Origin: Omphalotus guepiniiformis
Lineage: Eukaryota; Basidiomycota; Agaricomycetes; Agaricales; Omphalotaceae
NCBI GenBank assembly: GCA_028554645.1
Contig: JAQOOI010000021.1
Span: forward strand, 1,798,001-1,862,000
Length of the DNA stretch: 64,000 nucleotides
Reading direction: 5' to 3'
The first letter of the stretch is position 1; the number at the start of each line of letters is the position of its first letter. A program made the translations under genes and the position numbers. The notes under the pieces are model-generated. The model was not told the DNA's origin, ran no database searches, and worked only from the letters and a program-made list of their open reading frames with translations. Below are positions 24,815 to 57,784 of this stretch, piece by piece.

Positions 24815-25235
24815 GCCGACAATCTCCTTTGGCAACTAAAAGTCAACCAAAAAATCATTAATAGAAGACTCTAGCATCTCTACAACAATTCTACTGCTTA
24901 CCGAGAAGGGCAGACGTCTCACTCGCCCAAAGCCATATGACCTCGCAGCCTGCAGCAACCACAGGCATGGTCTCTTCGGTATATTCCAACGGCACGAGCC
25001 ACTCGAAAGGTACGGCATTGTGTAAGGAACGAGCTCTGAGGCATAGACTCTTGAGACATTCGATTTTCAGGACTCCTGTGAAACCCGCAGAAGAATTTGA
25101 GTGCAAAAGAACGATCTCTGAGGTATAAACTCTGGGACGTTCACTGTGCACCTGTGTTGGTAAATCCTGCAGCGCTATCACACGAGGATAAGAATGCTTC
25201 TGAACGTTGAGATTATTCGCCTTACCTGGCATTCG
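24815..25235 (-). pseudogene. Patchwork of gene fragments: T5orf172-type exon/intron piece joined to a piece of the 927-codon orphan family
   Basis: At 24815-24905 the sequence (ctcctttggca, then aaatcattaatag) closely follows 19290-19362 of the T5orf172-like gene, including its intron. Directly beside it, at about 24940-25015, the minus strand encodes EWLVPLEYTEETMPVVA, nearly the same as EWLEPLDYTEETMPVVA in the intronless gene at 30568. The frame does not continue into either full gene. Both parent families have a full member in this window. The structure is a decayed chimera, not a working gene. Confidence 0.6.
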
Positions 25236-30149: not shown

Positions 30150-30567
30150 GTTGAAGTGCTAGTTGAAGTTCAGGTTACTAATTACTATGTGGCGTCCGAC
30201 CACAAAATCATCATGGTCCGTGGGAATGAGTTACCAGAATCAGGAGTGAAGCGCCCACAAATTACGCGGATTCGACATTCTTTTGAGTTCAATTTCAGTG
30301 CTTGCAGTTTGCACCACCACCTGCCGCTATACCGCCCTCAACTACTGCAAATATATTCGAGTTGCAGGTAAGCGATCAGCTTGACGATTGTAATCGTTCT
30401 AACTTGCATTTACTAGGCAGCTTTTAACACCGAGAGTCCCGCACAATTGAACGTCTCAGAGTTGATACCTCAGAGCGCGTTCTTTTTGCGACAATTGCAA
30501 CACCAGAGGCCCCTTGACAACGTTTTGAGGTCACTTATCCTTATATCTCCTTCTCTACGCCGGCAAA

Positions 30568-33351
30568 ATGTCTCAACGACCAAAGCACGTGGGTCTGGCG
30601 TTGACATCGAATCTCCAGCATACTCTCATCGACAACGATCTTTTTACTATCGTCAATGGAAAACCTACTGGATTTCCCAAAATACCGCCCCGATACGGAC
30701 ATGACCCCACCCCTAGGAGCGAGTCACTCTCGAGAATAACTCGCCCTCTCTGGCTGACTGATTCCATGCCGTATCTTGCTTTTGTGCCTGCGCAGGACCC
30801 TTTCAAAACAGAGTGGCTCGAGCCTCTGGACTACACGGAAGAGACCATGCCTGTGGTTGCAGACATCACACCTGGTGCAGGTGGCATGTTTGTTTTGGAC
30901 AGTGTGGTCATACAGCTCTGGGAAGACCTTGAGCGAGTGCTCAGAAGGTTGTTACGGGCTTCGATGAAGCTAGCGAACATCGGCATTCCCAATGACTTTC
31001 GATTTTGGTCGTATCCAACCCAATACGGCTACACTCGTCCGCATTATTCAGAGCTCACAACGCGCCGTCATGCAGTAGCTTCTCGCAACGCGTTCCTTCC
31101 ATTGGCTGGAGCGATCTCGTACTTTGTCCATTGCATGAAAATGCAGGAAGAGGTTCGCGACTCTCAATCGCGAAGAGACCTTCCCCAAGGTCTCAGTGAC
31201 GAGGGATTGGAAGAACAGCATTGGAGGCAGGTTCTGGACCGCCTGCAAAAGGAAACCGGCCTCTCGAGCATTTGGTTATCTTACTGGAGAAAGTCATTGC
31301 TGGAGGCCACTCATGTGGGTGCCTTCGTTGATACAACGAGTCTGAAATATCTGGTACCTGTTCTTATCAAGGCAAAGTTACCACTAGCATTGTATTGGGG
31401 TGATGCTCGAGAGAGTTGGTATCATGCGCCCTCTCTGACTACTTGGGCACCTAGTACTGCAGTGTTGAATAGACTCGTTCTGATTCGGTATGGGAGTGCC
31501 AGGCTGTTTGCCCCGGATGCCGAGATAGGCATGTTGGACGACGAGGTGCGAAGAGCACAGTCTGGCCAACACGGGAGCACTGTCATTGAAGGTCGGCTTT
31601 ACGAGATCTTGACACGAGCTCTGGATCGTGAGCAGAGTACGCGGCGGGTAGATCGAGGCCCCACTTCAGATCCACTGCTCGCCATTGCACCGCAATCTCG
31701 CAAAAATCCTGTTCTCCCAAACTCTGGTCAGCGGCCAGACGAGGATATTAATGCATTCTTTGAAAGACGGGAGCAGGAGAAGGCCTCACGGATCGCTCGT
31801 GAGTCAGCGGTGGATCGTCAACGCCGACTTCAAAGAGAGAGTGTTGCAGCAAAAGACCTTCCCCCGGGTAGAAAAGGTGCAACTGTGTTCTATTGGGAGC
31901 TGGTGGATGGAGTTCGGAGGCGAATGCCAGCGGGTCGCAATCACTACGAGTCTTACTGGGAGGAGTACGGTCCGCACCAGAGAAGGTATGATTCAGTGCG
32001 TAATGAGTGGGATGTGTGTACCGATTTTGATCCCGACGACTCGCCCCCATACTGCTCTGACGATGAAGAGGCGGACGAACCTGCTTCTGAAGTGCTTCCG
32101 GATGAACAAGATAACCTTGACCTTGAAGGAGGCACATCGGCTGAGTACCTCCGACATCTGCATGGTGAAGCTGAACCCACCTCCACCCATCCTCCACTAG
32201 AATTCCCAGATCCGTTTGAGGATATCGCTTACCATCGCCTGGGATGGCTGGACCATATTAACGTTATCACTCATCCTGAAAAGGACGTCCATTGGGACAA
32301 AGTGCGCAATGTTTTAGGAAATGCACGGTCTGAGCAGGCGCCACAGCTTAGAAAATCCAACTGTGACATCCTGCGTCATTTCATTACTGCCCTCCTCGCT
32401 GCAAACAGGCTTGCCGATGCACCAAAGAATCTCGATTTACATTATGAAGGCGCGGAAATACATGGCAATTGGGGTTTCTCCGTGATTTACAAGGATATCA
32501 AGGATGGATTTTACTTGATCTCGCCTGATTCAGCGAATCGTGGTCCGTTTCAACTTGCGTTGAAGAGTGCCGGTGCTGTTCTTGAAATTGTGCGTCGTGG
32601 ATGGGGCCCCGATCCAACGAAAGTTATACCGAATCTGATGCGGCATGGCATCGCGTTCAATACATTCATTCGTGATACACCTAGGCTTCGCGTGGCACCA
32701 GGCGATTCTTGGCCTCGACCGTTGCTGGGGTACAGAGATCAGAAGTTTTTGCGAGAAGGATCGGTGGATGCGGGGCCTCAGCAGGTGCTAAAGGAGTATC
32801 GGGCATATGTGTACCAACGAGATCATTTCTTGCGGATGGAAAGAGGTCGAGCGGCTATCTTGGCAGGAGGCATCATAGCGCGTCTTGCGCTGCATATAGT
32901 CAACGAAGATGCTCTCTTGAAGGGTCCAACTAAGAAGGTCTGGTCATCGGGAGAGTGCCTTTGGGACGGGCATTCAGACAGTGCAGGGTATTGGGACGAT
33001 CTGCTTACTGAAGAGGAGATTGATTTGATTTGTGGAGTGTACGACGTGGGTACTGGGCAACGGGACCGTCGGGGATATATGCAAGTGGCTCAGAAGTCCT
33101 GGTGGCCCAGACCAACGGCATGGAAAGTGAGCGGGCTCAATTGCGGGTACTGGACTAGAGATGCGGAAGCCTGGTTTCAGCGCCGTTTAAAGAGCATTAG
33201 CAATGGATCTGCAATGGTCCTGAGCAATGAAGAGTGGAAGCAATCGATCAAGTTTACAAAGGATGCATTCAGACTGGCGAAGAGGACCGAGAATCTTGCA
33301 CATGAGTACCTTCAAAGACGGATCATGGAAGGCCAGGACAATTGTCTGTAG
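30568..33351 (+). CDS. Intronless 927-codon protein of an Agaricomycete orphan family
   Basis: One uninterrupted frame from ATG 30568 to TAG 33349-33351, unlike the intron-rich neighbours. The N-terminal third has EWLEPLDYTEETMPVV, IPNDFRFWSYPTQYGY and SRNAFLPLAGAISYF, a pattern I associate with large multi-copy gene families of unknown function in mushroom genomes. A charged middle (about residues 410-545, acidic with DDSPPYCSDDEEADEP) links to a C-terminal region rich in Trp and Tyr (HGNWGFSVIYKDIKDGFYL, GRAAILAGGIIARLAL). No catalytic motif is evident. The lack of introns and the fragment of a relative at 24.9 kb suggest spread by duplication, perhaps by retroposition. The function is unknown. 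Confidence 0.72.
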   Translation: MSQRPKHVGLALTSNLQHTLIDNDLFTIVNGKPTGFPKIPPRYGHDPTPRSESLSRITRPLWLTDSMPYLAFVPAQDPFKTEWLEPLDYTEETMPVVADITPGAGGMFVLDSVVIQLWEDLERVLRRLLRASMKLANIGIPNDFRFWSYPTQYGYTRPHYSELTTRRHAVASRNAFLPLAGAISYFVHCMKMQEEVRDSQSRRDLPQGLSDEGLEEQHWRQVLDRLQKETGLSSIWLSYWRKSLLEATHVGAFVDTTSLKYLVPVLIKAKLPLALYWGDARESWYHAPSLTTWAPSTAVLNRLVLIRYGSARLFAPDAEIGMLDDEVRRAQSGQHGSTVIEGRLYEILTRALDREQSTRRVDRGPTSDPLLAIAPQSRKNPVLPNSGQRPDEDINAFFERREQEKASRIARESAVDRQRRLQRESVAAKDLPPGRKGATVFYWELVDGVRRRMPAGRNHYESYWEEYGPHQRRYDSVRNEWDVCTDFDPDDSPPYCSDDEEADEPASEVLPDEQDNLDLEGGTSAEYLRHLHGEAEPTSTHPPLEFPDPFEDIAYHRLGWLDHINVITHPEKDVHWDKVRNVLGNARSEQAPQLRKSNCDILRHFITALLAANRLADAPKNLDLHYEGAEIHGNWGFSVIYKDIKDGFYLISPDSANRGPFQLALKSAGAVLEIVRRGWGPDPTKVIPNLMRHGIAFNTFIRDTPRLRVAPGDSWPRPLLGYRDQKFLREGSVDAGPQQVLKEYRAYVYQRDHFLRMERGRAAILAGGIIARLALHIVNEDALLKGPTKKVWSSGECLWDGHSDSAGYWDDLLTEEEIDLICGVYDVGTGQRDRRGYMQVAQKSWWPRPTAWKVSGLNCGYWTRDAEAWFQRRLKSISNGSAMVLSNEEWKQSIKFTKDAFRLAKRTENLAHEYLQRRIMEGQDNCL

Positions 33352-34138: not shown

Positions 34139-34775
34139 TGATACGACCGCGGGAATACCACTACCATTTTCGGCCTCGCGGGATTGATCACTCCAGTACA
34201 AACCTACTAAGTACACTGTATAGTCCTAAGTTCCGCGGTGTATTACGCACATTCAACCACTAGTATATGTGTACAAAGGTGTACAAGACTGTAGAACGGC
34301 ACTAAATGGGTCTTCTCAGTGTAGGTATTACCTAAGTATGCACTCAAGTAAAGTGTCGCGGCACTTGTTCTAAGGTCCGACGTGTATAACTTGATGGCCC
34401 CAATACTGTATAAACCAACGCGTAGGTAACGAGGTACCGCGGCACTACTCAGAAGGCCAGACTTAGAAACCAGGTAGCAGTAGCTCCGTGCACTAGTCAT
34501 ATCTAATGACCACTGTTGAGCCACAGAAGGGTCTAGACGTACGATGTAACACGAAGTACTTCCGACGACGCGGAAGTAGAACACGTAAGGAGACACAGCG
34601 TTAGCGAACTACCGCGATACTTTCTAAAAGCGGCAAGATTATAACCCGATATAGGATACCCTGTTACCGCGTACTATACTTCATCCCTACCTTACGCGGT
34701 GCACCATATGCACCATATATCTCATAACTGTCAAGTATCGCGACATTTGTTTGTACTATGTAAATAGAGATACTG

Positions 34776-34782
34776 TATATAA
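34776..34782 (+). promoter_or_regulatory. TATA box of element 1 (TATATAA)
   Basis: TATATAA within the LTR, placed so that transcription would start about 25-35 bp downstream and produce an RNA whose first AUG is about 1.1 kb away, at gag. The same site in the 3' LTR could drive outward transcription into the broken WD40 gene. Confidence 0.65.
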
Positions 34783-34945
34783 GAAATAGAACCTGGGCAA
34801 GGAAGGGGAGGTTCCCGAGCCCCCCATAGAGCTAATAGCATTTGTGTGTGGAAAAGCTTAAGTCCCTCTGAGTGATTAGAAGTTTTAAAGTGTTAACCGT
34901 CGCGTTAGTTCATAAGTCAGTGTGCCTAAGTGTTTACAAGCGGGA

Positions 34946-35096
34946 TCGTCTGGTACCGCGGAGCCTGTGTGTGTAGTGCGAATAAGAGTGGATCGTCTGG
35001 TCACTCGTTGAACTCGTCGTCTGGCAGTTCTGAAATCCTCCTATACCCAACTCCACTAAGTGAGAAGTCGTCTGGCATCTCCCAACAATCGTCTGG
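34946..35096 (+). repeat. Five direct copies of TCGTCTGG in the transcribed part of the LTR
   Basis: Copies at 34946-34953, 34993-35000, 35017-35024, 35068-35075 and 35089-35096, irregularly spaced. All lie downstream of the TATA box and thus in the leader RNA. They could be RNA or DNA protein-binding sites or a packaging/dimerisation signal; this is inference. Confidence 0.7.
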
Positions 35097-35379
35097 TTGT
35101 TGTATCGTTTGTAGTCACTGGTCGCGGTGATTTGTTAAAGTTACGCGTTAGTTTGTTTGAGTGGTGTGTAGCATAGAGTTATCTGTGCCGCGTCGGTTTT
35201 GACTGTGTCTCCGCGTTCCTCTTACAACAACCTTATTCGCTTCACAGAGTTTGTTAGTCCCCCAAACCCCACGAACTTAAAAGTCTTTGTGTGTTGTGTG
35301 TGTGTTTTGAGTGCTTGATAGATTCATTCGAGTTAGTTAGCACTTCTTCTCATTCATACCCCATACCAAGCACATCATC

Positions 35380-35394
35380 TGGAGCCCACCGCGA
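35380..35394 (+). promoter_or_regulatory. Probable primer binding site of element 1
   Basis: TGGAGCCCACCGCGA begins two bases after the LTR end, as expected for a site complementary to a tRNA 3' CCA end. I did not identify the tRNA. Confidence 0.55.
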
Positions 35395-35464
35395 GGGGTT
35401 TCTGATTAATAAACTAAGTGAAGTGTTTTAGGTTCCGTACGAGACCGAAGAGTTATAGTCGCGG

Positions 35465-37228
35465 TTGTCTAACCAACAATCAGACAAAACGTCTAGACGA
35501 AGTTCACGGCCTTCAACGGTAGAGAATACCAGAGAGTCGTTAGCACGTGCAAAGGCAATCAAAAGAGTTAGTAGCTACAGGAAGTCACATCCTGAAGTTG
35601 TTGCTCAACCCCGAGAATCGATTAACGTAGTTGACGCGGAAGATTCGAGTATTAGACAGTCGCGGAACTTTGACGAAGAACTATCTGATTACGGAGAAGG
35701 TACTTCAATTCAATTTCCTAGGCCAGACCCACCGTCGCGTCGAAACTCAGTAGTCCCACCAACTATTGATAGACATTCTCATTCGGACGAGGAACTATCC
35801 GAAGTCCACACACTTCTATTTGATTTACATATTTCACCGAACTCTGCACCTAATTTACCTATAATTCAAGAAAATATCATAAAAATGCCGGCTATGGATA
35901 AGATTCCGAGGAGAAGAGAACGTGGAGCACCAGATTTGCGTCGCGATCATGATGTAGACGACGTCAGAGACTATCTGGGGGAGATTGAGGATATTATCCA
36001 AGATTTCAAAATAGAGGAAGAAGCGGATAAGAAATCAGTCGCGTTGCGTTACCTACCCGCAACTATAAGAGAACAATGGAAGGCGTTGCCTACGTACGAG
36101 AAAGAGGAAGGGACGTTTATCGAGTTCCGCGACGAGATTTTGAAGAGTTATGATGGAGGATCGGACGAGGGAACTTTCTCCTTCGCAAAATTTGAAAGAG
36201 CCGCGAAGAAGTATAAGAATATAACGATGGAAGATCTCGAAGATGTATTAAGAATGAGGAATACCCTACGGCCGTTCCTTAAGCACTACACTACGACCGC
36301 GTTGTATACTAACAGAGAAATTGTCAGAGTCCTCCGCGGAATGTTTGAAGATGAATTTTGGAGATCCATCACGTTGACTTTGAAGTTACAAAAGCGTGCG
36401 AACCCACCTGCAGAGGCTAGACCGAGAGATGATGCCTATACAGCAGAAGAGATTCTGGACGAGGCAGAATTTAACGCGAGATCTCAGGTTGAGGAAGTAA
36501 TTAGTCTTGGGAACGTAAGGTCCGCGAAGGAAGATAGAGGAAAGAAAGTAGAAAAAGTGAAGCATGAGCAAACGGAAGGATGGGTGGCGGAATTGAAAGA
36601 TCTAATCACGATTCAAACAAAGAACCTTACCCAGAGAGCCGCGAGAGAAGAAGAAATGATGGGTAAACTGCTAGAGCAATTAAAGCTCGCGGCACCTGGA
36701 ACGAGTAGCGGTACCAGGCATCCAGAACGTATACCCTATATGGCGCCGCGGGACTACGGGAGAACCGCGTTGAATGACAACCGTCCCGACTACTTTCGAG
36801 CCGCGACGTGTTGGTTCTGTGGCTTAAACGGACATATGGCAGGGCAATGTATGGTACGCAAGCAGTACGTAGATGATGGAAAGATCATTTTGAAAGAAGG
36901 GATCACTTGTATGCCAGATGGAGAGCCAGTAGCACAGAAAGCTCCAAATGGGCCTCCTCAGAAAGACTTTGTGGACCGAAGACTGTCTGAAAAGAAAGTA
37001 CAAGCTTCTCAGGTTGAGGTACTACAGATGCAACTAGAGGAGGTCGAGTCGTACAATAAACAGTACACTAGAGTTTGGCAAGAATATGAAGAGGCGAAGC
37101 GTGCTCAAGAAAGGGTGTTAGAATCCAATCTCAGCGCGGCCTATATTCGAGGGTCGGCAAGAGATTCAATAAGTAACGTGGCAGTTAGTAACAATGAGAA
37201 AGGAAGGTTCGAGGAGGGTTTTCGGTAA
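35465..37228 (+). CDS. gag: Gag of element 1, first ATG at 35885, open frame extends upstream without ATG
   Basis: From ATG 35885 the product is 447 residues: a helical capsid-like region (IEDIIQDFKIEEEADKKS, EQWKALPTYEKEEGTF) and a zinc knuckle CWFCGLNGHMAGQC (CX2CX4HX4C, near 36809). The C-terminal part is coiled coil (VEVLQMQLEEVESYNKQ). The same frame is open for a further 140 codons upstream, to 35465, and reads like protein (SRRSSRPSTVENTRES, SDYGEGTSIQFPRPD), yet it has no ATG. Either initiation is at a non-AUG codon (TTG at 35465 or an ACG near 35489) or the stretch is leader. The stop TAA at 37226-37228 lies 3 bp after the slippery heptamer GGGTTTT. Confidence 0.88.
   Translation: MSNQQSDKTSRRSSRPSTVENTRESLARAKAIKRVSSYRKSHPEVVAQPRESINVVDAEDSSIRQSRNFDEELSDYGEGTSIQFPRPDPPSRRNSVVPPTIDRHSHSDEELSEVHTLLFDLHISPNSAPNLPIIQENIIKMPAMDKIPRRRERGAPDLRRDHDVDDVRDYLGEIEDIIQDFKIEEEADKKSVALRYLPATIREQWKALPTYEKEEGTFIEFRDEILKSYDGGSDEGTFSFAKFERAAKKYKNITMEDLEDVLRMRNTLRPFLKHYTTTALYTNREIVRVLRGMFEDEFWRSITLTLKLQKRANPPAEARPRDDAYTAEEILDEAEFNARSQVEEVISLGNVRSAKEDRGKKVEKVKHEQTEGWVAELKDLITIQTKNLTQRAAREEEMMGKLLEQLKLAAPGTSSGTRHPERIPYMAPRDYGRTALNDNRPDYFRAATCWFCGLNGHMAGQCMVRKQYVDDGKIILKEGITCMPDGEPVAQKAPNGPPQKDFVDRRLSEKKVQASQVEVLQMQLEEVESYNKQYTRVWQEYEEAKRAQERVLESNLSAAYIRGSARDSISNVAVSNNEKGRFEEGFR
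37216..37222 (+). promoter_or_regulatory. -1 ribosomal frameshift site 1 (GGGTTTT), gag to pro
   Basis: The gag codons here are GAG GGT TTT CGG TAA, so the heptamer is G GGT TTT (X XXY YYZ). Slipping back one base moves the ribosome exactly into the pro frame, which is open from 37198. It is followed after 7 nt by TTCGAGGA. No strong hairpin is evident close by; a GGCCC(C)TA/TAGGGCC pairing begins about 29 nt downstream. Confidence 0.8.
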
Positions 37229-38442
37229 GTTCGAGGATGGAAAGCCAGGCCCCTACAAAAGAGAAAAATCCTGTTAGGGCCGCGGCACCTGAGAATGATA
37301 CTGAAAACAAGGGTAATGAACGACGGTTGTGGAAAGAAAAGGACGCGGAACCTGAGAAGGACGCGAGCCTAGAGAAAGATAAGTATAAGGAGTTGGTCAA
37401 GAGGGAAAAACGTTTGAGATTCGATGGTGTCGAGATGCCTCCGCTACCTACAGTAGTGAAGAAGAGCCGCGTACCAGAGGTTCCTTACGCGAACGTACCT
37501 GATGTGTCGTATTCGCCAACTGAGCAAGAGAAACTGAAAGCTCAGAAAGAGCGGTTAGAGAACCCGAGGGGGATAATTTGGAAGACAAGGAATGAGAAGG
37601 CCGCGGAGTCTCCTGTTATTCCGTTAACTAAACATCCTGACGCGGAAGAAACAGTAGTGGAATCAGAAATTTCACTCAGAGGAACAATCAAGTCAAGAGT
37701 CAAATTGAAGCCTGAAGAGACCGCGGGAGGTTTGAGAGAGATCCTAGCCAAAAGCCCCCTATTACCTTTTAGCGAGGAAAATGTAGGAGAGGTTCACGTA
37801 ACAGCAAATACAGTCGCGTTAGCTGACCTTAATGTCACCGCGGAAGTTTTTGTTCTGAAACAGGCGGAAGGAGATCTTCCAGCAGGAGCGGTTGTGATTA
37901 GCGATCCAGTTGAACAGTACGTGGAAAGCCTGGGAAGCAAAGATAACCCAATTCAGATCTACGTGGCAAGAGATTCAGAGTCGCTTCGATGCGTGTATCC
38001 TTTGGTAAATGGTACCGCGAAGATCGAAAGTCTACTAGACTCGGGTTCACAGATTATCTCTACATCGGAGAAAAGAGCTCGCGAAGCAGGTTTATCGTGG
38101 GACCCGGACATAGTAATCTTTATGCAATCGGCTAACAAGGGTGTTGAGAAGTCTTTGGGATTGGCGCGTAATGTACCATTCTTACTAGGCGGAATCACCG
38201 TGTACTTACAAGTACACGTAATTCGAGACCCCGCGTATGAATTGCTACTGGGACGGCCTTTTGACACGATCACGGAGAGTTTAGTGGATAATCATGCAGA
38301 TGGAACGCAGGACCTCGTTATTCAGGACCCTAACACTAAGAAGCGAGCTGTTGTACCTACCTATGAGAGAGGGAAAGGTTCTGTACCTATAAGCAAAGAC
38401 AAGGAACAGACTCAGGGTTTTTCAGCAGCTTCGAGGAATTGA
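37216..38442 (+). CDS. pro: Pro (aspartic protease) reading frame of element 1
   Basis: This frame is -1 relative to gag and is entered at GGGTTTT 37216-37222. The first ATG is at 37237, but translation by frameshift explains the overlap better. The product has a long charged linker (many Lys/Glu), then a retroviral-type aspartic protease with the active site LLDSGSQI near 38030 and the second conserved motif LLLGRPF near 38240. It ends at TGA 38440-38442, shortly after a second GGGTTTT. The protease would cut Gag-Pro and Gag-Pro-Pol. Confidence 0.88.
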   Translation, partial: GFSVSSRMESQAPTKEKNPVRAAAPENDTENKGNERRLWKEKDAEPEKDASLEKDKYKELVKREKRLRFDGVEMPPLPTVVKKSRVPEVPYANVPDVSYSPTEQEKLKAQKERLENPRGIIWKTRNEKAAESPVIPLTKHPDAEETVVESEISLRGTIKSRVKLKPEETAGGLREILAKSPLLPFSEENVGEVHVTANTVALADLNVTAEVFVLKQAEGDLPAGAVVISDPVEQYVESLGSKDNPIQIYVARDSESLRCVYPLVNGTAKIESLLDSGSQIISTSEKRAREAGLSWDPDIVIFMQSANKGVEKSLGLARNVPFLLGGITVYLQVHVIRDPAYELLLGRPFDTITESLVDNHADGTQDLVIQDPNTKKRAVVPTYERGKGSVPISKDKEQTQGFSAASRN

Positions 38443-38461
38443 TCCCAGATCAAGGAGAAGC
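38415..38461 (+). promoter_or_regulatory. -1 ribosomal frameshift site 2 (GGGTTTT plus hairpin), pro to pol
   Basis: The pro codons are CAG GGT TTT TCA, giving G GGT TTT at 38415-38421. After a 6-nt spacer a stem can form: GCTTC (38428-38432) with GAAGC (38457-38461), then an inner stem TTGATC (38439-38444) with GATCAA (38448-38453) closing a CCA loop. Slipping -1 enters the pol frame. As at site 1, TTCGAGGA follows the heptamer, here after 8 nt. Confidence 0.8.
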
Positions 38462-41400
38462 CGCGGTGGTTTTTGAATTAAATAACGAAGGTATTCCCAT
38501 TGGCATAAGTGATGTAGTATTTGCAGATATAAACGAAGAGCAAAAATCAAAGTTTGAGAAGCGAGAGTTACGCGATCTATACTTATCTGCCGCGGAAAAG
38601 TATATTGATCTAAAAAGTGATAAAGAAACGACGAGACCCGTATTGAGATCCTATTTGAGTTCGGTGTATGGAGCGCAAAATCCTGCCGCGTACTCTCAAG
38701 CAAATTTCACGGTGCAAGAAGTAGAGCTAGAAGACGGCGTAGAAGAGTTACAGCAAATTCCCCTGTTTGATGTAAGGAGCATCGCGATGCTTGATGTATC
38801 CCCTGATATGAAAGATCAAGTGAGGAGGCACGCGTCGCGGCTGTGGAAGGAACGTTACGAACCAATTAGTATCTTGGCAGGGAAGAAATACAAACCTGTC
38901 GCGTTGAAAACACGCCCTGTTCTAGGAGATTTGCCATCGAAGTTTAGAATCATAAGAGAGATTAAAGGAGATCCATTGGCTGATATGCCGCAGCTTTCGC
39001 CTAATCCTCCAGAATTCACGCCGACTGGTAGGTATACTCAGGAACGTAAAGAGATAATAGACGAGATACATAAGGAAGAATTCCTTTGGCCAGAAGAACG
39101 GAAGTTGATGCATCATATGATGATGCAGCAAGAGAAAGGGTTCGCGTGGGACGACAGTGAACGCGGAAGATTCAGAACAGATTTCTTTCCTTCAGTAGAG
39201 ATGCCCGTGATACCTCATACACCTTGGGTTGAGAGGAACATTCCTATTCCCCCTGGTATTTTTAATGAAGTATGCGCGGCAGTTAGACGAAAGATTGACG
39301 CGGGAGTTTACGAACCATCGAACTCGTCTTACCGATCGAAGTGGTTCGCGGTGTTAAAGAAAGACGGAAAGAGTATTCGACTAGTACATAGTTTGGAACC
39401 GTTGAACGCGGTAACAATAGCACATTCTGGTATACCGCCTGCTACTGAAGAGCTCGCGGAGAAATTCTGTGGTAGAGCTTGTGGAGGAATTCTAGATTTA
39501 TATGTTGGCTATGATGAAAGAGAGTTGGCAATAGCATCGCGAGACTTAACTACATTCCAGACTCCCTTTGGAGCCCTGAGGTTAGTAACACTACCGATGG
39601 GATGGACGAATTCAGTACCAATCTTCCACGATGATGTAACACACATATTACAAGAAGAGATCCCGGAGTTTACGCAACCATACATCGATGATGTTCCTGT
39701 ACGCGGTCCTGAAACGACTTATCAAAGTGAAGATGGTACGTACGAGACCATTCCTGGTAATGATGGGATACGGAGGTTTATTTGGGAACATTTCACCAAT
39801 ATGAATAGAGTCATTCAAAGAATGAAGTACTGTGGTGGGACTTTCTCAGGCCCCAAAGCTGTATTGTGTAAAAGCGAGATTACCGTGGTCGGACATAGGT
39901 GTACACGAGAAGGAAGAGAGATCGACCCGGAACGAGCGAAAACTATTACCAACTGGGGTGGACCTGAGAATATCCTAGAAGAGAAGGATATAAGACCATT
40001 CTTAGGCACCGCGGGACTAGTAAGAATGTTCGTCAAAGACTATGCAAAGATCGCGGAGCCTTTAACCCGATTTACGCGTAAAGATATTCCGTTCGAATGG
40101 CGACAAGAGCAAAGTGACGCGTTGGCAAAGTTGAAAGAGACAGTAAAGAATAGCAAGGCATTACGACCACTAAAGTATGATGTGGAAGACCCTGTTATAT
40201 TGGCAGTAGATACGTCGTGGAAAGCGGTTGGGTTCTATATTTGTCAAGTGGATCCAGAGAATCCGCGACGAAGGTTCTACTCCAGATTCGGTTCGATTAC
40301 ACTAAGTGATCGCGAAGCTAGGTTTTCACAGCCGAAACGGGAGTTGTTTGGTTTGTATCGCGCGTTACGAGCGTGCCAGTATTGGTTGTTTGGTATTCGC
40401 AACCTTATAATCGAAACTGACGCGAAGTACATTAAAGGCATGTTAGAGCATCCTGATCAAATGCCAAACGCCGCGATAAATAGGTGGATAGAGTCGATCA
40501 TGATGTTTCATTTTAAACTGAAGCACGTACCAGGCAAGGTTCACGGACCTGATGGACTATCACGGCGGGATAAGCAAGTAGGAGACGATGAGTATGACAA
40601 TCCTGAAGATGGTGAAGTTCAAGAACCCTATAAATTAGAGGAGTTTGTAGATAAGATTGACTCTAAGCATGGTTACGCGCAAGTATTAGTTGATGAGAAA
40701 GAGGAATGGAAAAGTAATTATATGACAGGTTTAGCCGCGTCGGTAGACGACTTTAAGGAAGAATTGACGCGTGCTTATAAGCAAGAACGAGAGTTCCGCG
40801 ACATACCAGAAGTAAAACAGTTTGTAGCCGCGAACTTGGCTAATGAAGTACCAGAACTCGAGGAGCCACCAGAGCATATTGACGAAACAGAGTATGATGA
40901 GTCTAAGCGATCGAAGGGAGCGATAAACCAAGATAAAACAGTCGCGGAGGTTTTCAAATGGCTAACAGACACTTCTAAGAGGCCTGTAGGCTATGAGAAT
41001 AACAAACGCTTCAAGAACTTTTTAAGGTTAGCGCGGAACTTCTTTATACAAGACGAAAAACTCTATCGACGTGGAATTGAGGCAAAACATAAGCTGGTAG
41101 TTGAGAAGTCGCGTCGCGTCGCCATGATCCATGCTTGTCATGATAGTCTGGGGCACCGCGGCTTCTTCGCTACTAAATCCTTACTTATGGAACGCTTTTG
41201 GTGGCCTGAAATGGAGAAAGACATCTATGAGTATGTGAAGACCTGTCATACGTGCCAAGTAAGACAAAAGACAAAGATCAGGATTCCTCCTACCGAGACG
41301 AAGACACCGTCAATCTTTCAGAAAATTCACGCTGACACCATGTATATGCCGGCGTCGAATGGCTACAAGCTGATTGTACATGGTAGGTGCGCGTTAACCG

Positions 41401-42386
41401 GCTGGATGGAAGGAAGACCGTTGAAAGCAGAGTCCGCAAGAGCGATTGGGCAGTGGTTATGGGAAGAAATTATCTGCCGCTGGGGCTGTCTTATAGAGAT
41501 AGTTACAGATAATGGCGGACCTTTTCTAAAGGCGTTGGAATGGTTAGAGAAGAAATATGGCGTACGCGGTATTCGCATATCACCTTATAACTCCCAAGCC
41601 AACGGTATCGTGGAACACGCGCATTATGATGTGCGACACAGTCTCATAAAGGCCGCGGGAGGTGACGATTCAAAATGGTTTTACTATTTCTACTTAGTAA
41701 TGTGGGCTGATAGGTGTACCATAAGAAAGAGATTTGGGTGCTCCCCATTCTTCGCAGTAACTGGTGCGCACCCCTCGCTACCTTTTGATATCGTTGAGGC
41801 AACATGGCTTGTAGAATATCCTGATCATTTCATAAGTGACGCGGAACTAATTGGACTACGGGCGAAAGCATTAGCTAAGCACGCGAAGCACATAGTTGAA
41901 TTGCGGGAACGCGTAACACGTGAGAAAAGGTCACGGTTGTTGAGGTTTGAAAAAGAGTATAAGTATGTTATTAAAGACTACGTGTTTAAGCCAGGTAGTT
42001 TGGTCTTAGTTAGGAATACTCAGATTGAAAAATCTTTGAACTCTAAAACAAAGCCGCGCTATTTAGGACCTATGGTAGTACTCAGGCGTACCACAGGTGG
42101 CAGTTACATTGTGGCAGACCTAAATGGTGCGGTGTTCCAGAATAAAATTGGAGCCTTCCGCGTAATTCCATATTGGCCACGGTCGCACATTGAACTCCCC
42201 GAGAACCTAAGTGAGCTGATTGGTTTGTCAGAAGATGGCTTGTTGAGAATTGAACAAGGTCTAGAAGAAGAAGAAGAAGATTTATCCGTAGAACACGATC
42301 AAGCGGACCTAGATGGTGAAATTCACGCGGACGTTTCAGTATACGACGCGAAGCACTGGATATCGAAGCCGAAGATCTTTCAGTAA
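38415..42386 (+). CDS. pol: Pol (reverse transcriptase, RNase H, integrase) of element 1
   Basis: The frame has no ATG near its start and is -1 relative to pro. A region of about 220 residues precedes the RT. The RT has HTPWVERNIPIPPGIF, LDLYVGYDERELAIASRDL and the catalytic YIDDVPV near 39680. RNase H follows (VILAVDTSWKAVGFYI ... ETDAKYIKGML near 40430). The integrase has the HHCC zinc finger (HACHDSLGHRG ... CHTCQ near 41260) and the DDE core (IHADTMY; VTDNGGPF near 41505; NSQANGIVEHAH near 41600) and a GPY/F-type C-terminal module (RYLGPMVVLRR). The stop is TAA at 42384-42386. All catalytic residues are present. It belongs to a gypsy clade that is abundant in Agaricomycetes. Confidence 0.93.
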   Translation, partial: GFFSSFEELIPDQGEAAVVFELNNEGIPIGISDVVFADINEEQKSKFEKRELRDLYLSAAEKYIDLKSDKETTRPVLRSYLSSVYGAQNPAAYSQANFTVQEVELEDGVEELQQIPLFDVRSIAMLDVSPDMKDQVRRHASRLWKERYEPISILAGKKYKPVALKTRPVLGDLPSKFRIIREIKGDPLADMPQLSPNPPEFTPTGRYTQERKEIIDEIHKEEFLWPEERKLMHHMMMQQEKGFAWDDSERGRFRTDFFPSVEMPVIPHTPWVERNIPIPPGIFNEVCAAVRRKIDAGVYEPSNSSYRSKWFAVLKKDGKSIRLVHSLEPLNAVTIAHSGIPPATEELAEKFCGRACGGILDLYVGYDERELAIASRDLTTFQTPFGALRLVTLPMGWTNSVPIFHDDVTHILQEEIPEFTQPYIDDVPVRGPETTYQSEDGTYETIPGNDGIRRFIWEHFTNMNRVIQRMKYCGGTFSGPKAVLCKSEITVVGHRCTREGREIDPERAKTITNWGGPENILEEKDIRPFLGTAGLVRMFVKDYAKIAEPLTRFTRKDIPFEWRQEQSDALAKLKETVKNSKALRPLKYDVEDPVILAVDTSWKAVGFYICQVDPENPRRRFYSRFGSITLSDREARFSQPKRELFGLYRALRACQYWLFGIRNLIIETDAKYIKGMLEHPDQMPNAAINRWIESIMMFHFKLKHVPGKVHGPDGLSRRDKQVGDDEYDNPEDGEVQEPYKLEEFVDKIDSKHGYAQVLVDEKEEWKSNYMTGLAASVDDFKEELTRAYKQEREFRDIPEVKQFVAANLANEVPELEEPPEHIDETEYDESKRSKGAINQDKTVAEVFKWLTDTSKRPVGYENNKRFKNFLRLARNFFIQDEKLYRRGIEAKHKLVVEKSRRVAMIHACHDSLGHRGFFATKSLLMERFWWPEMEKDIYEYVKTCHTCQVRQKTKIRIPPTETKTPSIFQKIHADTMYMPASNGYKLIVHGRCALTGWMEGRPLKAESARAIGQWLWEEIICRWGCLIEIVTDNGGPFLKALEWLEKKYGVRGIRISPYNSQANGIVEHAHYDVRHSLIKAAGGDDSKWFYYFYLVMWADRCTIRKRFGCSPFFAVTGAHPSLPFDIVEATWLVEYPDHFISDAELIGLRAKALAKHAKHIVELRERVTREKRSRLLRFEKEYKYVIKDYVFKPGSLVLVRNTQIEKSLNSKTKPRYLGPMVVLRRTTGGSYIVADLNGAVFQNKIGAFRVIPYWPRSHIELPENLSELIGLSEDGLLRIEQGLEEEEEDLSVEHDQADLDGEIHADVSVYDAKHWISKPKIFQ

Positions 42387-42606
42387 ATCACTCAAGAGAT
42401 AGGGCCACATGGCAGTTTTATTATAAAAACGAGTGTATGATCTGTACGTGTTATGTTGAAATATACGCGACAAATTGGAAATAAATAAGTTTACGCGATA
42501 GTTGAATACAAGTGCGGAAGGGAAACGGAAAGTTACGCGGTACCTCTATTCACGACAAGAAGATTAAAAAGTGTCGCGGAAGCACAAGAAAAGTTCCAGA
42601 AGCAGT
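42387..42606. other. Junction between pol and the antisense genes of element 1
   Basis: About 220 bp separate the convergent stops of pol (plus) and the antisense partner gene (minus). The stretch would hold both 3' ends. CGCG remains frequent here. No coding signal. Confidence 0.5.
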
Positions 42607-44045
42607 TCAAGTATCAGTCACGGAGGGCATATCTTCGTCGCCAGTCATATCGATAAGGGGAACGTTAGTTTTATTAACCAGCTCCTTCTGCTGCGACGCG
42701 ATGCTCTGGTAGCTCTTCATCAGCAAATCCCGCATTTGGAGCTGGAGACTGATCTGATGGTTGACCGCGATAAGTTTAGAGCGAGTCTCGAACTCCAGCA
42801 TGGTGAGGCTACGATCAGTAGGCCCACTAACGGGTTCGAGCACCGCGAGATTGGCACGATCAACGAGTGACTGCACAACCGAGTTAGAGAAAGTGGAGAC
42901 AGGGTCTACCAAAAGATAGGTTAGTTGAAAAGTCGCTAGCGGCAGTATGAAAACGTGACACGTACTAGGGGGTGCCAGAGGTGGATCGAGCATAGAGAAG
43001 TTGTGCGCCCAAGTAGGAGGAGCTGCCGCGACACTAACCACCTCCATCTTAGCTTTCTTGGCAGGAGGATTGATGGTACTCTTATCCACCGCGGCAACTG
43101 CCTTAAGGTATTGCCGTGAAGTAATAAGCATGCGTGGTATCTCAGAAAAGTGGAGATATCTTACGGGGTGATTAGTCGACGCGTGAGGCTATGAAAGGAA
43201 CGTTAAGTCAGAATAACATTGGGAGAAGGAATGGTGGTCGTACCCTTTTAACTGCCGCGACGCTAGGCTCAACCTTTGGAGTAAAGGGGGCAACGCGGGT
43301 AACTTCTTCAACTGCTGCGAGGTCGAGAGTCTGAAGCGAGGTACATAGTTTTAGCAACAGAGCAAGCTGGCTCGGGGTAGGGTGGCGACCTACCGTGGTA
43401 TTAGTAGTGGAATCTGCAATAGAGGGGGATTCATCGTCACCCATAGCAATATCGCTACCCGCCGCGTCGTCGTCAACCTCCTCGTCACTACTATCAATAC
43501 GAGCTTGGGATGCAATACGCTTGCGAATCTAGGAAAAAGTTTTAGTACCAGTGGTTATTCAAGAAAAAGAACTGATTACTTACGCGGCGGCTAGTACGAA
43601 CGCGACCTTTGCCTTTGACGGGCACTGGGGTTACAGCAGTTGGAACAGGAGCAGCCGCGGCGACTTTGGGAACCTCCTTGGGTTTACCAAACTGAACACA
43701 TTTACCGCGGTACGGACCAAGTAAATGATGAGTTGGTGTATACTTCGCGGTAACTGGGTCCCGCGGCAGTTGTTCAAAGAAGAACAGAGTGAAAGTACGA
43801 ATGTCAGCGTTAGCCAGCGCGGCATCAGGGTGAGCTTTCCAGAGCTCGAGCTAAAAAGAGAGAAGTAAGGCACGGGAAGGGAGTCAGCGCAGTAGGAAAC
43901 TTACGAGTTTTTGTGCACAAGACATCGCGACGCGATTAGCATCGTCAGCACCACGTTTGGCTCGACGCTCGCTAAACGACTTATAAAGAGGTGCTACCTC
44001 TTCCACGAGAAACTGGACGTCAACAGAAGAAGTATCAGTAGACAT
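42607..44045 (-). CDS. Antisense partner gene (type B) carried by element 1
   Basis: A spliced gene opposite to gag-pol. It starts MSTDTSSVDVQFLVEEVAPL at 44045, has a GTAAGT donor after CAQKL, and continues LELWKAHPDAALANADIRTF, LPRDPVTAKYTPTHHLLGPY. Later exons hold a nuclear-type acidic stretch (IDSSDEEVDDDAAGSDIA) and a basic one (GKGRVRTSRR), then a helical C terminus (LIAVNHQISLQLQMRDLL) ending at TGA 42607-42609. A TATA box (TATAAAA on the minus strand, 44085-44091) sits about 40 bp upstream of the ATG. The overall plan resembles the gene at 62441 in element 3. The function is unknown; a chromatin or regulatory role is only inference from composition. Confidence 0.68.
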
Positions 44046-44522
44046 AAGTGAATCCGATAGGAAGAACTTAGGGTTTGGAGGGCCTTTTATACCAGGCCAG
44101 GGCAGTCATGACTACGAGGAAACTTGTCAGTGTAGAATTCTAAGTCCGCGATACTTACTTTCAAAGTGGACGCGGCGGACCATATGGTACTTTACCAAAG
44201 GACACGAGTGTTCAAGACAACTGGGGACAGTTGCAATTTCAAAGATGGGGAAGGGTCACAGGAGTAGAAAAGTACCGCGTAAGGATCGCTCGAATGTACC
44301 GCGTAGAGTTAAGTGCCGCGTAGGATCGCTTGAATTCTGAAAAATCTTATATAACAAAGAAAGTGTCATACAGCTTAAAGATTCAATCTCCATGAAACAA
44401 AAGCAGTGATGATTTTCATGTAACAAAGAATATACAGGATCCGCGATATGACAATACTACGATACTAAAAGCTTTTATTACCGCGGGGCCTGGACAAGAA
44501 CGATGAACGCATGCAGTGATCA
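44046..44522. other. Spacer between the two antisense genes of element 1
   Basis: Contains the TATAAAA box of the downstream gene (minus strand, 44085-44091), a second TATA-like run (minus strand, near 44347) and a short near-repeat (taccgcgtaaggatcgctcg at 44274 and a related gccgcgtaggatcgcttg near 44313). CGCG motifs are frequent. No gene. Confidence 0.5.
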
Positions 44523-46834
44523 CTAGTTCTGATATGCATGGTGAAGAGAATCCGGGTTTATGGAGGAAAGCTCCCCCGCGTCGATTTTGGGTTGAATTTG
44601 TTCATCAATAATCACCTTGGCCAAGTCCCCGCTAAGTCGAAGCTGGGCCAGGTAATCTTTGCCAAAATTAAAATACCCCGCAGCAATAATGTCGACGAGC
44701 TCCGCGACCTTGCCTTCCGCCTTACGCTGAACCCCATGCATCGCTTTGGCAATATGATCCAGGTCTTCAAAAAGCGTCGCGGCCTCGTGTTGAAGAGATA
44801 GAGCATCTGAAAACTAGAAGTTAGGAGGAGAAAAGCAAGCAAAAGAAAGAAATACATACGGCGAACAGAGAAGAGGCCGCGGTTGTGCATTGCATCATCT
44901 TCGAGCGCGATCTTCCGTATACCGTAGCGAAATGTACAAGCCGAGTCCTTCTTACTCAAGCACTCGTTACAGGACTCGCCAGGTGCCACGAAGACACAAG
45001 GTTTGCCATGAACGACGCAAGAGCTGCACCGAAGAGAAGGCTAGCAACGAAAAGTAGAAAGTCAGAATAAAGTGCCGCGGTACAGGAAGCTAGATCACGT
45101 ACCAGATTGACGCTCTTGGCCACGGATTGAAACATTTTGATATGAGAAGTCATCAGGGGCGGCAATAGACCAGGGAAATCGAAATTGATTGCTTGCGCAG
45201 AAGGAGCCTCGTTAGGCTGAAACCACCGCACACCTGCCTCGAAGTTGCCGTGAGAAGAGGAAGGAGCCGCGGAGGCTTTACTTCCCTTGGTGATAGGCAA
45301 GGAGTCGCGAGGAATTGCAGCGCCCATCTTCGCTGCCGCGGGGAAAACATGGTCGTACCAGTATTGAGGATACCCCTCCACTTCGCGTAGAAATCGACGA
45401 TTGTCCGCGGGATCACCCATTTGAGGAGGAGGAGTGAGGAATCGGCCCTCCTCTTGAATAGTAGTAGCCGCGGGTTTGGTATTGGCCCGCTTCTTACCTT
45501 TACCTTTGCCTTTCACCTGAAAGGGAGAAGACCTTTAGAAAGAGTGTTGGACGACGGGCAAACCAGCAAGACTTACAGGAGGAGCTGGGTCCTCAGGTAG
45601 AGATGAAGTCGCGGGCAGCGCCGCGGAAGCTCCCGGTTGACTAACAGCAACAGCAGAAGGGGGAACGACTGTCGTGGAGGTTAATGGCGAAAAGGAAGCC
45701 GGTACCCCAGAGGAAAGAAGAGCAGGAGGGATCGCGTCGTCTCGCAGAGAAGGTGGTAAACGAGGGGTAACGGGCAGCGGCACCTCTATCATGTCCTGAC
45801 CAAAGCCAGCGGATAAGTCAACCGGCGGAGGCGATCGAGAATGAGCCTAAGTAAGCCAGAGTTTTGAACAAAGAGTCGCGGAGAATTTGTAAAAGAAACT
45901 TACGAAGGGAGAGCCAGCAGAGGGAGTAGGAGCGGTAGCGGGCAAAGAAGTAGAGTCCGCGGGGACACTAGGAACAACCTCAGCTGTGGGCTCCGCGTCA
46001 GATTCACTGTCCACGCGTCGTCGAGAAAGAACGCGACGACGTTCCTTAGAAAACGAAGTCTCTATATCGGACTCGACAGCTTCATCATCGAACTAAGAAA
46101 AGGCGAAGTCAGAAAATAAGCATTAGGGAGGAACAGAGAAATAGTACCAAGTCCAACGGTGGAGGACGTTTTCCCGGACCAACGCGACGATGTCCATGTT
46201 TGCGGTGAGAACGCGCAACGGGAGTAGCTGACGCGGGGCTAAGATCGTAGGTCTCATCCTTAAAGGCCAAAAAGTCAGCGTCGTATTGCGCCCGATCTTC
46301 CGCGGTGACAGGGCGAAGCTGCAAGAGACAAGTAAAAGTATAAGGTAAAAGAAGGGACAAGAAACTGTTGTACCAAATGAGAAGTCTGACCGCGAGAACG
46401 AGCACGCTTGGACGCGAGTTTTCTCAGCGTCTCACGGCGAACGTGTGTGAACGAGACTCCGCAGGAGGAGGCGATGGAGTACGACGCGAAGACGAAGCGA
46501 GTGAAGGCAAAGCCGCCGCGGAAGTAGGAATCACAGTCGGTTGGACAGCCAGTTGCCCGCTACGGATGTATTGAAGCAGAGCGAACTCCGCAGCAGATAT
46601 AGACTGCTGTGAGTTAGGCTCCGACATTCCAGGGAGAGGTGCTGGGGCTGCCTCGCGGCGTTGTCGTTTGTGAGGGCGAGAGTTTGAAGGTCGAGGAGAG
46701 GGCATGATAGATTTAGTCTCCGAAGGTGTGGGTGAAAAAGCCTGTCCAAGGAAGTTAAGAAAGGGATCACCAAGAGCGGCCGCGACACTTACTATTAAAG
46801 AATTATAGTCAAGGGGTTCAGCTTTGATGGGCAT
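44523..46834 (-). CDS. Antisense Cys-cluster gene (type A) carried by element 1
   Basis: A spliced gene running away from the 3' LTR. It starts MPIKAEPLDYNSLIVS at 46834, about 60 bp below a TATATAA box (minus strand, 46893-46899). Exons are Pro/Ser-rich with basic patches (SRPHKRQRREAAPAP, KGKGKGKKRANTKP). After an intron near 45045-45105 comes a Cys cluster, CSSCVVHGKPC then 8 residues then CNECLSKKDSAC (CX2CX6C-X8-CX2CX7C). A helical tail (KAMHGVQRKAEGKVAELVDI) ends at TAG 44523-44525. The Cys spacing suggests a zinc-binding, perhaps DNA-binding, module. The same layout occurs in the gene at 59772. Exact exon borders in the Pro-rich part are approximate. Confidence 0.7.
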
Positions 46835-47270
46835 AAACCAGTGATGAAAGAGGGAGCAAAAAGTTGAAGTTCGACACCCGGGCACTGAAGGTTATATACA
46901 CCTCGCGGCGATGGGGTCCTCAGAATGGTGCCAGTATCAAGTTCCATTCCTAGAAGACGCGAGAGCAAAAGTTTGATGTATTACACACTTATTCAGGGTA
47001 CGACATACAGCTTTGACAAAGAAGCGATGGCAATCCATTAACTGAATAACCGGTATGTCCGGGAACTAACGTAACCGGACGATGAGGAATGAAGAGACGC
47101 GGCGATTTACCAATAAGGTAACGTGATGGCATGTGATGTGACAAGAAGGAGGGAGAGCGCTACATGAGTCAGAAAGAAGTTTGTGATATCCAGAAAAGGG
47201 AGGTTGATGCGCCTTTCCGGGATAGACCCTGAGTAGGACCCCAGCGACTGGGACAGTCGATATTTTAGTC
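46835..47270. promoter_or_regulatory. Promoter zone of the antisense genes next to the 3' LTR
   Basis: Holds the minus-strand TATA box (46893-46899) of the Cys-cluster gene and otherwise noncoding sequence up to the polypurine tract. No open frame that I can support. Confidence 0.5.
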
Positions 47271-47279
47271 AGGGGGAGA
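47271..47279 (+). promoter_or_regulatory. Polypurine tract of element 1 (AGGGGGAGA)
   Basis: AGGGGGAGA directly precedes the TG of the 3' LTR, the normal priming site for plus-strand DNA synthesis. The same end, GGGGGAGA followed by TG, is found on the minus strand at 59263-59271 in element 3. Confidence 0.8.
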
Positions 47280-48518
47280 TGATACGACCGCGGGAATACC
47301 ACTACCATTTTCGGCCTCGCGGGATTGATCACTCCAGTACAAACCTACTAAGTACACTGTATAGTCCTAAGTTCCGCGGTGTATTACGCACATTCAACCA
47401 CTAGTATATGTGTACAAAGGTGTACAAGACTGTAGAACGGCACTAAATGGGTCTTCTCAGTGTAGGTATTACCTAAGTATGCACTCAAGTAAAGTGTCGC
47501 GGCACTTGTTCTAAGGTCCGACGTGTATAACTTGATGGCCCCAATACTGTATAAACCAACGCGTAGGTAACGAGGTACCGCGGCACTACTCAGAAGGCCA
47601 GACTTAGAAACCAGGTAGCAGTAGCTCCGTGCACTAGTCATATCTAATGACCACTGTTGAGCCACAGAAGGGTCTAGACGTACGATGTAACACGAAGTAC
47701 TTCCGACGACGCGGAAGTAGAACACGTAAGGAGACACAGCGTTAGCGAACTACCGCGATACTTTCTAAAAGCGGCAAGATTATAACCCGATATAGGATAC
47801 CCTGTTACCGCGTACTATACTTCATCCCTACCTTACGCGGTGCACCATATGCACCATATATCTCATAACTGTCAAGTATCGCGACATTTGTTTGTACTAT
47901 GTAAATAGAGATACTGTATATAAGAAATAGAACCTGGGCAAGGAAGGGGAGGTTCCCGAGCCCCCCATAGAGCTAATAGCATTTGTGTGTGGAAAAGCTT
48001 AAGTCCCTCTGAGTGATTAGAAGTTTTAAAGTGTTAACCGTCGCGTTAGTTCATAAGTCAGTGTGCCTAAGTGTTTACAAGCGGGATCGTCTGGTACCGC
48101 GGAGCCTGTGTGTGTAGTGCGAATAAGAGTGGATCGTCTGGTCACTCGTTGAACTCGTCGTCTGGCAGTTCTGAAATCCTCCTATACCCAACTCCACTAA
48201 GTGAGAAGTCGTCTGGCATCTCCCAACAATCGTCTGGTTGTTGTATCGTTTGTAGTCACTGGTCGCGGTGATTTGTTAAAGTTACGCGTTAGTTTGTTTG
48301 AGTGGTGTGTAGCATAGAGTTATCTGTGCCGCGTCGGTTTTGACTGTGTCTCCGCGTTCCTCTTACAACAACCTTATTCGCTTCACAGAGTTTGTTAGTC
48401 CCCCAAACCCCACGAACTTAAAAGTCTTTGTGTGTTGTGTGTGTGTTTTGAGTGCTTGATAGATTCATTCGAGTTAGTTAGCACTTCTTCTCATTCATAC
48501 CCCATACCAAGCACATCA
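47280..48518 (+). repeat. 3' LTR of element 1
   Basis: Same length (1239 bp) and, on reading, the same sequence as 34139-35377, including the TATA box, the five TCGTCTGG copies and the TG..CA borders. It is followed by acgg, the target duplication. Confidence 0.95.
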
Positions 48519-53274: not shown

Positions 53275-53999
53275 AACAAGTCCGCTTAGGTAGATATTTC
53301 TTTAGCTTCGATCTTGTCAATAACTCCTCGAGTTTAGACTTGTACTTAGCATAACATCTTTGTATCATTCCTCTTCTCAATTCTATTTTCTGCTTTTCTC
53401 TTATTCGTGTGAAACTGAGATTCTCGTGTTTGGTTATTTGAGTTTGACAACTCGAGTCGCTGACATAAGATCGAAGCTACACAACTCACCCGACCAACAC
53501 AATTCAAATCGCCTTCTTGTTGCTATTTCAGTAGCAAGTAAGTTTCTCTTGACCCTTCACACACTTACTTCATTTTCTCCCTTTGATATTCGGGTTTCCG
53601 TCCGAATTAGGAATCTGTGCTCCATTAGAGTAATTGCGCCTATAGTACAAACGAGTAACGTTGAGTCCGACTTGGTACTGGCAGCAGAAAGCATCGTCTG
53701 ATAACCAACCTTCGGGGAGGGGACTTTGCGCTTGGGGAACGAGGTGCACTCCTAGAAAGGCACGTCCAGGTTTACTCAGCAAGCAAGCACAGATTAGGAA
53801 CTCGTCTATTAGAGGTAGAAAAGGTCCCGAAATCTCTTCGTGAGGTTACTGACGGACCGAAGTAAACTCTACCATTACGGAATCTTGGGGGAACTTTAGC
53901 AGTCTCTTCGAAGAAACTACTATCCCATCACCTATCACACCTTCCTACAAATCTCTTGCATCATCTCCCTATTCTACCCGACCTTCTACCCCTATCAGA

Positions 54000-54893: not shown

Positions 54894-54912
54894 ATACAGG
54901 TCCTTCTGAGTT
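54869..54912 (+). promoter_or_regulatory. -1 ribosomal frameshift signal of element 2 (GGGTTTT plus hairpin)
   Basis: The gag codons ACG GGT TTT GTC place G GGT TTT at 54869-54875. After a 7-nt spacer an 8-bp perfect stem forms: CTCAGAAG (54883-54890) with CTTCTGAG (54903-54910), loop of 12 nt, extendable by G-U and A-U pairs. The -1 frame is open into pol. This has all parts of a classical frameshift signal. Confidence 0.85.
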
Positions 54913-56542: not shown

Positions 56543-56544
56543 AA

Positions 56545-57770: not shown

Positions 57771-57784
57771 TAATAGCAGCGTAA

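Follow-up and report, generated by a model that had tools for sequence, protein, structure and literature searches.

How a single retrotransposon could express proteins from three successive reading frames is the question raised by a 64,000-nt stretch of the genome of the mushroom Omphalotus guepiniiformis (GenBank assembly GCA_028554645.1, contig JAQOOI010000021.1, positions 1,798,001 to 1,862,000 of the forward strand), hereafter called the window. The window carries a long terminal repeat (LTR) element in which gag, pro and pol occupy three reading frames, each being -1 relative to the preceding one. Judging from the sequences of the element, its copies and its relatives, this layout is most likely explained by two successive programmed -1 ribosomal frameshifts.

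Three reading frames and two junctions

The open reading frames (ORFs) of the element and the signals at their junctions were located as follows (aa, amino acids; RT, reverse transcriptase).

35459..37228, + strand: gag ORF, 589 aa from stop to stop and 447 aa from the first ATG at 35885
37216..37222, + strand: gag-pro slippery heptamer G GGT TTT (site 1), in gag phase
37226..37228, + strand: gag stop TAA, with the next pro-frame ATG 8 nt downstream at 37237
37198..38442, + strand: pro ORF, 414 aa, an aspartic protease with LDSGSQ and a long N-terminal extension
38415..38421, + strand: pro-pol slippery heptamer G GGT TTT (site 2), in pro phase
38440..38442, + strand: pro stop TGA, unchanged in 29 other copies
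38367..42386, + strand: pol ORF, 1339 aa, with RT (YIDD), RNase H and integrase (H2C2, DDE)

An initial annotation of the window had placed the ends of gag and pro at 37228 and 38442, each preceded by the G GGT TTT given above and followed by a -1 frame, pro in the first case and pol in the second, and both junctions were confirmed base by base. It had also described pol as having no ATG of its own, which is correct for the start of pol, where the first in-frame ATG is only codon 141 (38787). A canonical in-phase heptamer was defined as X XXY YYZ, with Y being A or T and Z not being G. In the upstream phase and within the overlap, this pattern is found at both sites of the window family (F0) and of a related family (F1), and at site 2 of three further families (F2-F4). 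Seven canonical in-phase heptamers occur in the 4817 codon slots that the window element and one divergent copy have in their three ORFs, three of the seven being located at junctions, and the estimated chance of an in-phase heptamer in a given overlap is 0.003-0.04 for each of the ten junctions in the five families.

With two shifts, gag, pro and pol would be expressed from one RNA, and most ribosomes would terminate at the gag TAA. Some would shift back by one base on G GGU UUU at 37216 to give Gag-Pro, and some of the Gag-Pro ribosomes would slip again on G GGU UUU at 38415, aided by an RNA fold located 3' of it, to give Gag-Pro-Pol. From these features we infer the slippage as such, the direction it takes in the cell and its efficiency, as well as the role of the fold and a step-wise dosage of the products.

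Conservation among copies and related families

Three frames, in-phase heptamers that are either kept or swapped for other slippery heptamers, and selection on all frames were found when copies and relatives of the element were searched for in its own genome (42.5 Mb, 80 contigs). The search with the junction stretch gave 40 matches, of which 30 loci were cut out for copy analysis. In the alignment of these F0 copies, a check that the initial annotation had suggested, both heptamers and both stops were kept in 30/30. Relative to the window, the 29 other copies varied at 252 of 2301 sites, among them none of the 14 heptamer bases and none of the 6 stop-codon bases. Other disabling changes in the junction stretch were present in six of the 30 copies, affecting pro (L016, L025, L028, L036) or gag (L037, L038).

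Selection was expressed as the ratio of nonsynonymous to synonymous changes, counting distinct changes in the 30 F0 copies with the window copy as reference. The own-frame ratios were 0.19 for gag (35 synonymous, 24 nonsynonymous), 0.20 for pro (83 and 55) and 0.31 for pol (27 and 31), and the two shifted frames gave 1.34 and 1.05 for gag, 1.06 and 1.12 for pro, and 0.51 and 1.54 for pol. Purifying selection acts on all three frames. From the pro stop up to the first ATG of pol, the ratio was 0.28 in the pol frame and 0.42 and 2.67 in the shifted frames. Since the constraint starts at the heptamer, upstream of any pol ATG, pol would be translated from the heptamer and not from its first ATG. 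An internal pol start at 38787 was rejected on the same upstream constraint.

The layout is not confined to the window family. Four related families, namely F1 (read from copies L048 and L052), F2 (L049, L051, L054, L055), F3 (L050, L053) and F4 (L041-L046), the last two being close to each other, repeat the three frames with both steps being -1. An in-phase heptamer is present at both junctions of all five families, with different heptamers in the same places. At site 1, heptamer and stop in the intact copies except L053 are G GGA AAC TAA in F1, G AAA AAC TAA in F2, and G AAA AAC TAG in F3 and F4, with the F0 gag stop situated one codon further from the heptamer than in the other families. 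At site 2, A AAT TTT is found near the pro end in F1-F4, compared to G GGT TTT in F0. From this heptamer on, the pol frame contains KFS/GFF...QGE(V/A)A in all five families, and upstream of it the frames are unrelated. Likewise, comparing F3 with F4 gave ratios of 0.11 for the gag end, 0.14 for pro, 0.23 for pol from the heptamer on, and 3.85 for the pol frame upstream of the heptamer. The gag and pro frames of F3 and F4 overlap by only 13 nt, heptamer included.

Whole-genome pattern scans gave similar counts with and without the heptamers. For site 2, 120 places were found with AAATTTT directly ahead of the downstream sequence of F1-F4 and 123 when only TTCA was asked for in that place, the reversed-pattern controls giving 0 and 1. 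For site 1, 81 places carried TCGAAAAACTA compared to 94 for the downstream pattern (controls again 0 and 1), the two patterns differing slightly in length and the downstream one demanding three more 3' bases. Among 12 further site-2 stretches of divergent copies, AAATTTT was present in seven.

Full-length copies with fewer frames, which the initial annotation had named as counting against its reading, were looked for with protease and RT searches. Regarding the protease, the best 150 of 175 candidates were scored, comprising 34 of the window family and 116 with 46-52% identity to the window protease (hand count), and for 149 of the 150 the open frame did not exceed 529 aa. The remaining one, L053 (F3-type, C46), carries gag and pro together in a 1106-aa open frame, with a single 559-aa stretch in L053:1-1680 as cut, and we read it as a natural gag-pro fusion at site 1. 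Regarding the RT, no open frame longer than 1434 aa was found among the best 150 of 342 candidates, and full-length pro and pol in one frame would exceed 1700 aa.

Downstream of site 2, the following structure was predicted.

38428..38461, + strand: predicted two-helix RNA element, 38428-38432 pairing with 38457-38461 and 38439-38444 with 38448-38453

This outer and inner helix, 3-6 nt after the heptamer, was returned by RNAalifold from eight site-2 sequences of the five families without a structure being supplied, and it includes three compensatory pairs in which both sides have changed. When the structure was named, 95% of 60 cells (six distinct rows) were paired, compared to 40-53% when it was slid along the alignment, and the covariation score was reached by 2 of 500 shuffles. 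A 3' fold at site 2 is considered probable, on moderate support. A simple search for H-type pseudoknots at the ten sites, in which shuffles were as good in 3% (F3 site 1) and 18% (F4 site 1) of cases, was not taken as evidence.

Relatives of the protease were also searched for among 5.8 billion proteins, with an admitted length of 0.55-1.75 times the query, which gave 937 relatives, 120 of them listed. At or just after x-Phe is where 112 of the 120 end, as would follow from a pro stop close to the heptamer; 93 have the ending xF-x(1-4)-[SL][MRK][NISTK], and an alignment of 21 proteins has the Phe in every one. Eight of the 120 fit neither ending, including three in which further residues follow the motif and three records named partial. 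The dipeptides among the 93 are mostly GF (38), VF (24), DF (22) and NF (5); at the level of protein data, GF and NF fit GGU UUU and AAU UUU, and DF and VF would need other heptamers. Another 19 of the 120 (P0015, P0020, P0030, P0032 and others) end at xF or one residue later, as if the stop directly followed the heptamer. The listed relatives are mostly unnamed or annotated as hypothetical, and the eight with organism names all belong to mushroom genera (Collybiopsis, Laccaria, Lentinula, Armillaria, Collybia, Mycena). Scans of IMG/VR and GTDB gave no relative. One gag protein search was without a match and another gave one Rhodocollybia butyracea protein, and the comparison of gag-pro sites covers this genome.

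Frameshifting weighed against other explanations

Several results weigh against two frameshifts. At site 1, G AAA AAC, the heptamer of three of the four other families (F2-F4), is not a perfect X XXY YYZ, and folding of the five families revealed no conserved 3' structure there. The site-2 fold is open to objections of its own, as single-sequence folding recovered the complete pair of helices in F3 and F4 alone, just the inner one in F0 and none in F1 and F2, with z-scores ranging from +0.32 to -2.55; all three compensatory changes separate F0 from the other families, and the 3' strand of the fold also encodes a conserved protein stretch. When considering the divergent site-2 stretches, L059 has lost AAATTTT and four of the 12 have no recognisable site. 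The +1-shifted pol frame is itself below 1, both over the 453 nt on which the pol ratios are based (0.51, a weaker contrast) and in the stretch from the pro stop to the first ATG of pol (0.42). Finally, the length range admitted in the protein search was such that a fused pro-pol protein could not appear among the protease relatives.

The frames could instead be joined by spliceosomal introns, a possibility raised by the gag stop lying within GTAAGT (37225-37230) and by TTTTTCAG (38418-38425) just before pol, both kept in 30/30 F0 copies. Excising 37225-38425 would join gag to pol in frame without pro, and excising 37225-37277 (53 nt) would join gag to pro in frame. However, GTAAGT is missing at site 1 of F1-F4, and CAG at the place of site 2 is restricted to F0 and F1. 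Short introns that would join the frames (at most 150 nt; donor GTRNGH, branch CTRAY, acceptor YAG) were scanned for at both sites of the five families without a match, and splicing leaves the in-phase heptamers and the constraint on the pol frame from the heptamer on unexplained. With signals that fit the window family only and no short consensus intron found, splicing was rejected as the main mechanism, and we consider it very improbable. That the three frames reflect mutational decay of one copy, or an assembly error, is practically negligible as an explanation: some copies have plainly decayed (the six of 30 mentioned above, and L047), but both junctions are common to 30/30 copies, purifying selection acts in three frames, and related families have the same layout.

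A further alternative concerns pro only: ribosomes could terminate at the gag stop and reinitiate at the ATG 8 nt past it, alone or beside frameshifting, so that the pro-pol step would be the only true frameshift. The spacing of stop, eight nucleotides and ATG is found in 5/5 families, including F0 with its stop one codon further from the heptamer, which speaks for reinitiation. Yet reinitiation does not explain why every family carries an in-phase heptamer at its gag stop or adjacent to it, nor why the frames in F3 and F4 share just 13 nt, heptamer included; the ATG could merely encode a conserved Met, and reinitiation would still leave Pol tied to the Pro frame. We regard this explanation as unlikely. 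The two -1 shifts read by the initial annotation are supported by the three frames kept with differing heptamers, by purifying selection, and by the pol constraint beginning at the second heptamer.

The element and its place among known systems

The element is bounded by two LTRs.

34139..35377, + strand: 5' LTR, 1239 bp, TG...CA, with 1239/1239 bases matching the 3' LTR
47280..48518, + strand: 3' LTR, 1239 bp, identical to the 5' LTR

It spans 34139-48518 (14,380 bp) and is a young, recently inserted copy, as follows from the identical 1239-bp LTRs and from ACGG on both outer flanks, a 4-bp target-site duplication. Directly 3' of the 5' LTR, TCTGGAGCCCACCGCG (35378-35400) is a candidate primer-binding site, to which no tRNA has been assigned. 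The gag translation contains a CX2CX4HX4C zinc knuckle and matches no Gag family at the Pfam cut-off. For pro, PF13975 was matched with E 7.7e-05, which is under the curated cut-off; the pro of the related copy L043 was above it and also gave a weak match to DUF4100, a family of which no mention was found in the open-licence full-text literature. The domain order, protease (PR) followed by RT, RNase H (RH) and integrase (IN), fits Ty3/gypsy (Metaviridae). The best solved-structure match of pol was the Ty3 Gag-Pol polyprotein (E 7.3e-29, residues 301-750), with retroviral chains scoring below Ty3, so that pol does not fall in the retroviral lineage on this comparison. By these sequence features the element is of the Ty3/gypsy type, and its RT appears closest to Ty3 among known elements, judged by solved-structure matches alone and without an RT tree.

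Between pol and the 3' LTR lie about 4.9 kb (42387-47279) with reverse-strand ORFs, for example 42607-43188 and 44956-45534, that had no Pfam match. No Pfam family indicating env was found on these ORFs, and no search aimed at env was made. Over 43000-46500, seven of 45 matches were 99-100% identical across nearly the whole stretch, and several copies with a 98-100% identical gag-pro-pol junction had a 3' module only 84-89% identical. This module looks mosaic.

Elsewhere in the window, a 50-nt inverted repeat (24955-25004 and 30811-30860, 88% complementary) has its second arm within a 940-aa ORF (30529-33351) for which no Pfam family was above the cut-off. A second, conventional Ty3/gypsy element is situated at 53853-57885, where PR (DSGA) and RT (YLDD) share the ORF 54701-56539, and is interrupted downstream.

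The LTRs, the short target-site duplication, the zinc-knuckle gag, the PR-RT-RH-IN order and Ty3 Gag-Pol as best solved relative are shared with the Ty3/gypsy elements of fungi, but here PR occupies a separate frame between gag and pol. According to PMC3248453, fungal LTR elements usually have two ORFs with PR within pol. In another Ty3/gypsy lineage of the same genome PR forms part of a long pol frame, and 40 of 87 RVP_2 matches lie in open frames of at least 1300 aa (hand count). As described in PMC5009743 and PMC2582038, some Ty3/gypsy elements of animals and fungi likewise use a heptamer for a -1 shift between gag and the next frame, with single shifts in LTR elements being reviewed in the former; those elements have one shift, whereas here a second one would separate pro from pol. 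PMC5009743 also describes certain retroviruses as relying on two -1 events, of which the first is more efficient.

Three frames for gag, pro and pol and two -1 sites are common to our element and the two-frameshift vertebrate retroviruses, in contrast to which it resides in a fungal host and its pol is nearest to Ty3 among solved structures. Two -1 shifts are known from beta- and deltaretroviruses such as MMTV and HTLV, and we take the G GGA AAC of F1 to be a betaretrovirus-type heptamer. The element would thus work like the two-step retroviral scheme, yet appears to belong to Ty3/gypsy, and the likeness is most likely convergent. The initial annotation knew of no such case in fungi; this agrees with the open-licence full-text literature, in which no description of two -1 shifts in a fungal LTR element was found, most subscription papers and repeat databases being outside that search.

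On balance, we lean towards the view that a mushroom Ty3/gypsy lineage evolved a two-step -1 cascade independently of vertebrate retroviruses, with exchangeable heptamers and a conserved fold at site 2, and that it may add reinitiation 8 nt past the gag stop to provide protease both fused and free. Gene finders break elements of this kind up into separate proteins annotated as hypothetical. The five families of this genome, whose natural heptamers differ at the same positions, offer a ready series for studying how the Gag : Gag-Pro : Gag-Pro-Pol ratio is determined. Should the slippage prove real, control of protease and polymerase by two frameshift steps would not be restricted to vertebrate retroviruses, having also arisen in fungal Ty3/gypsy elements.

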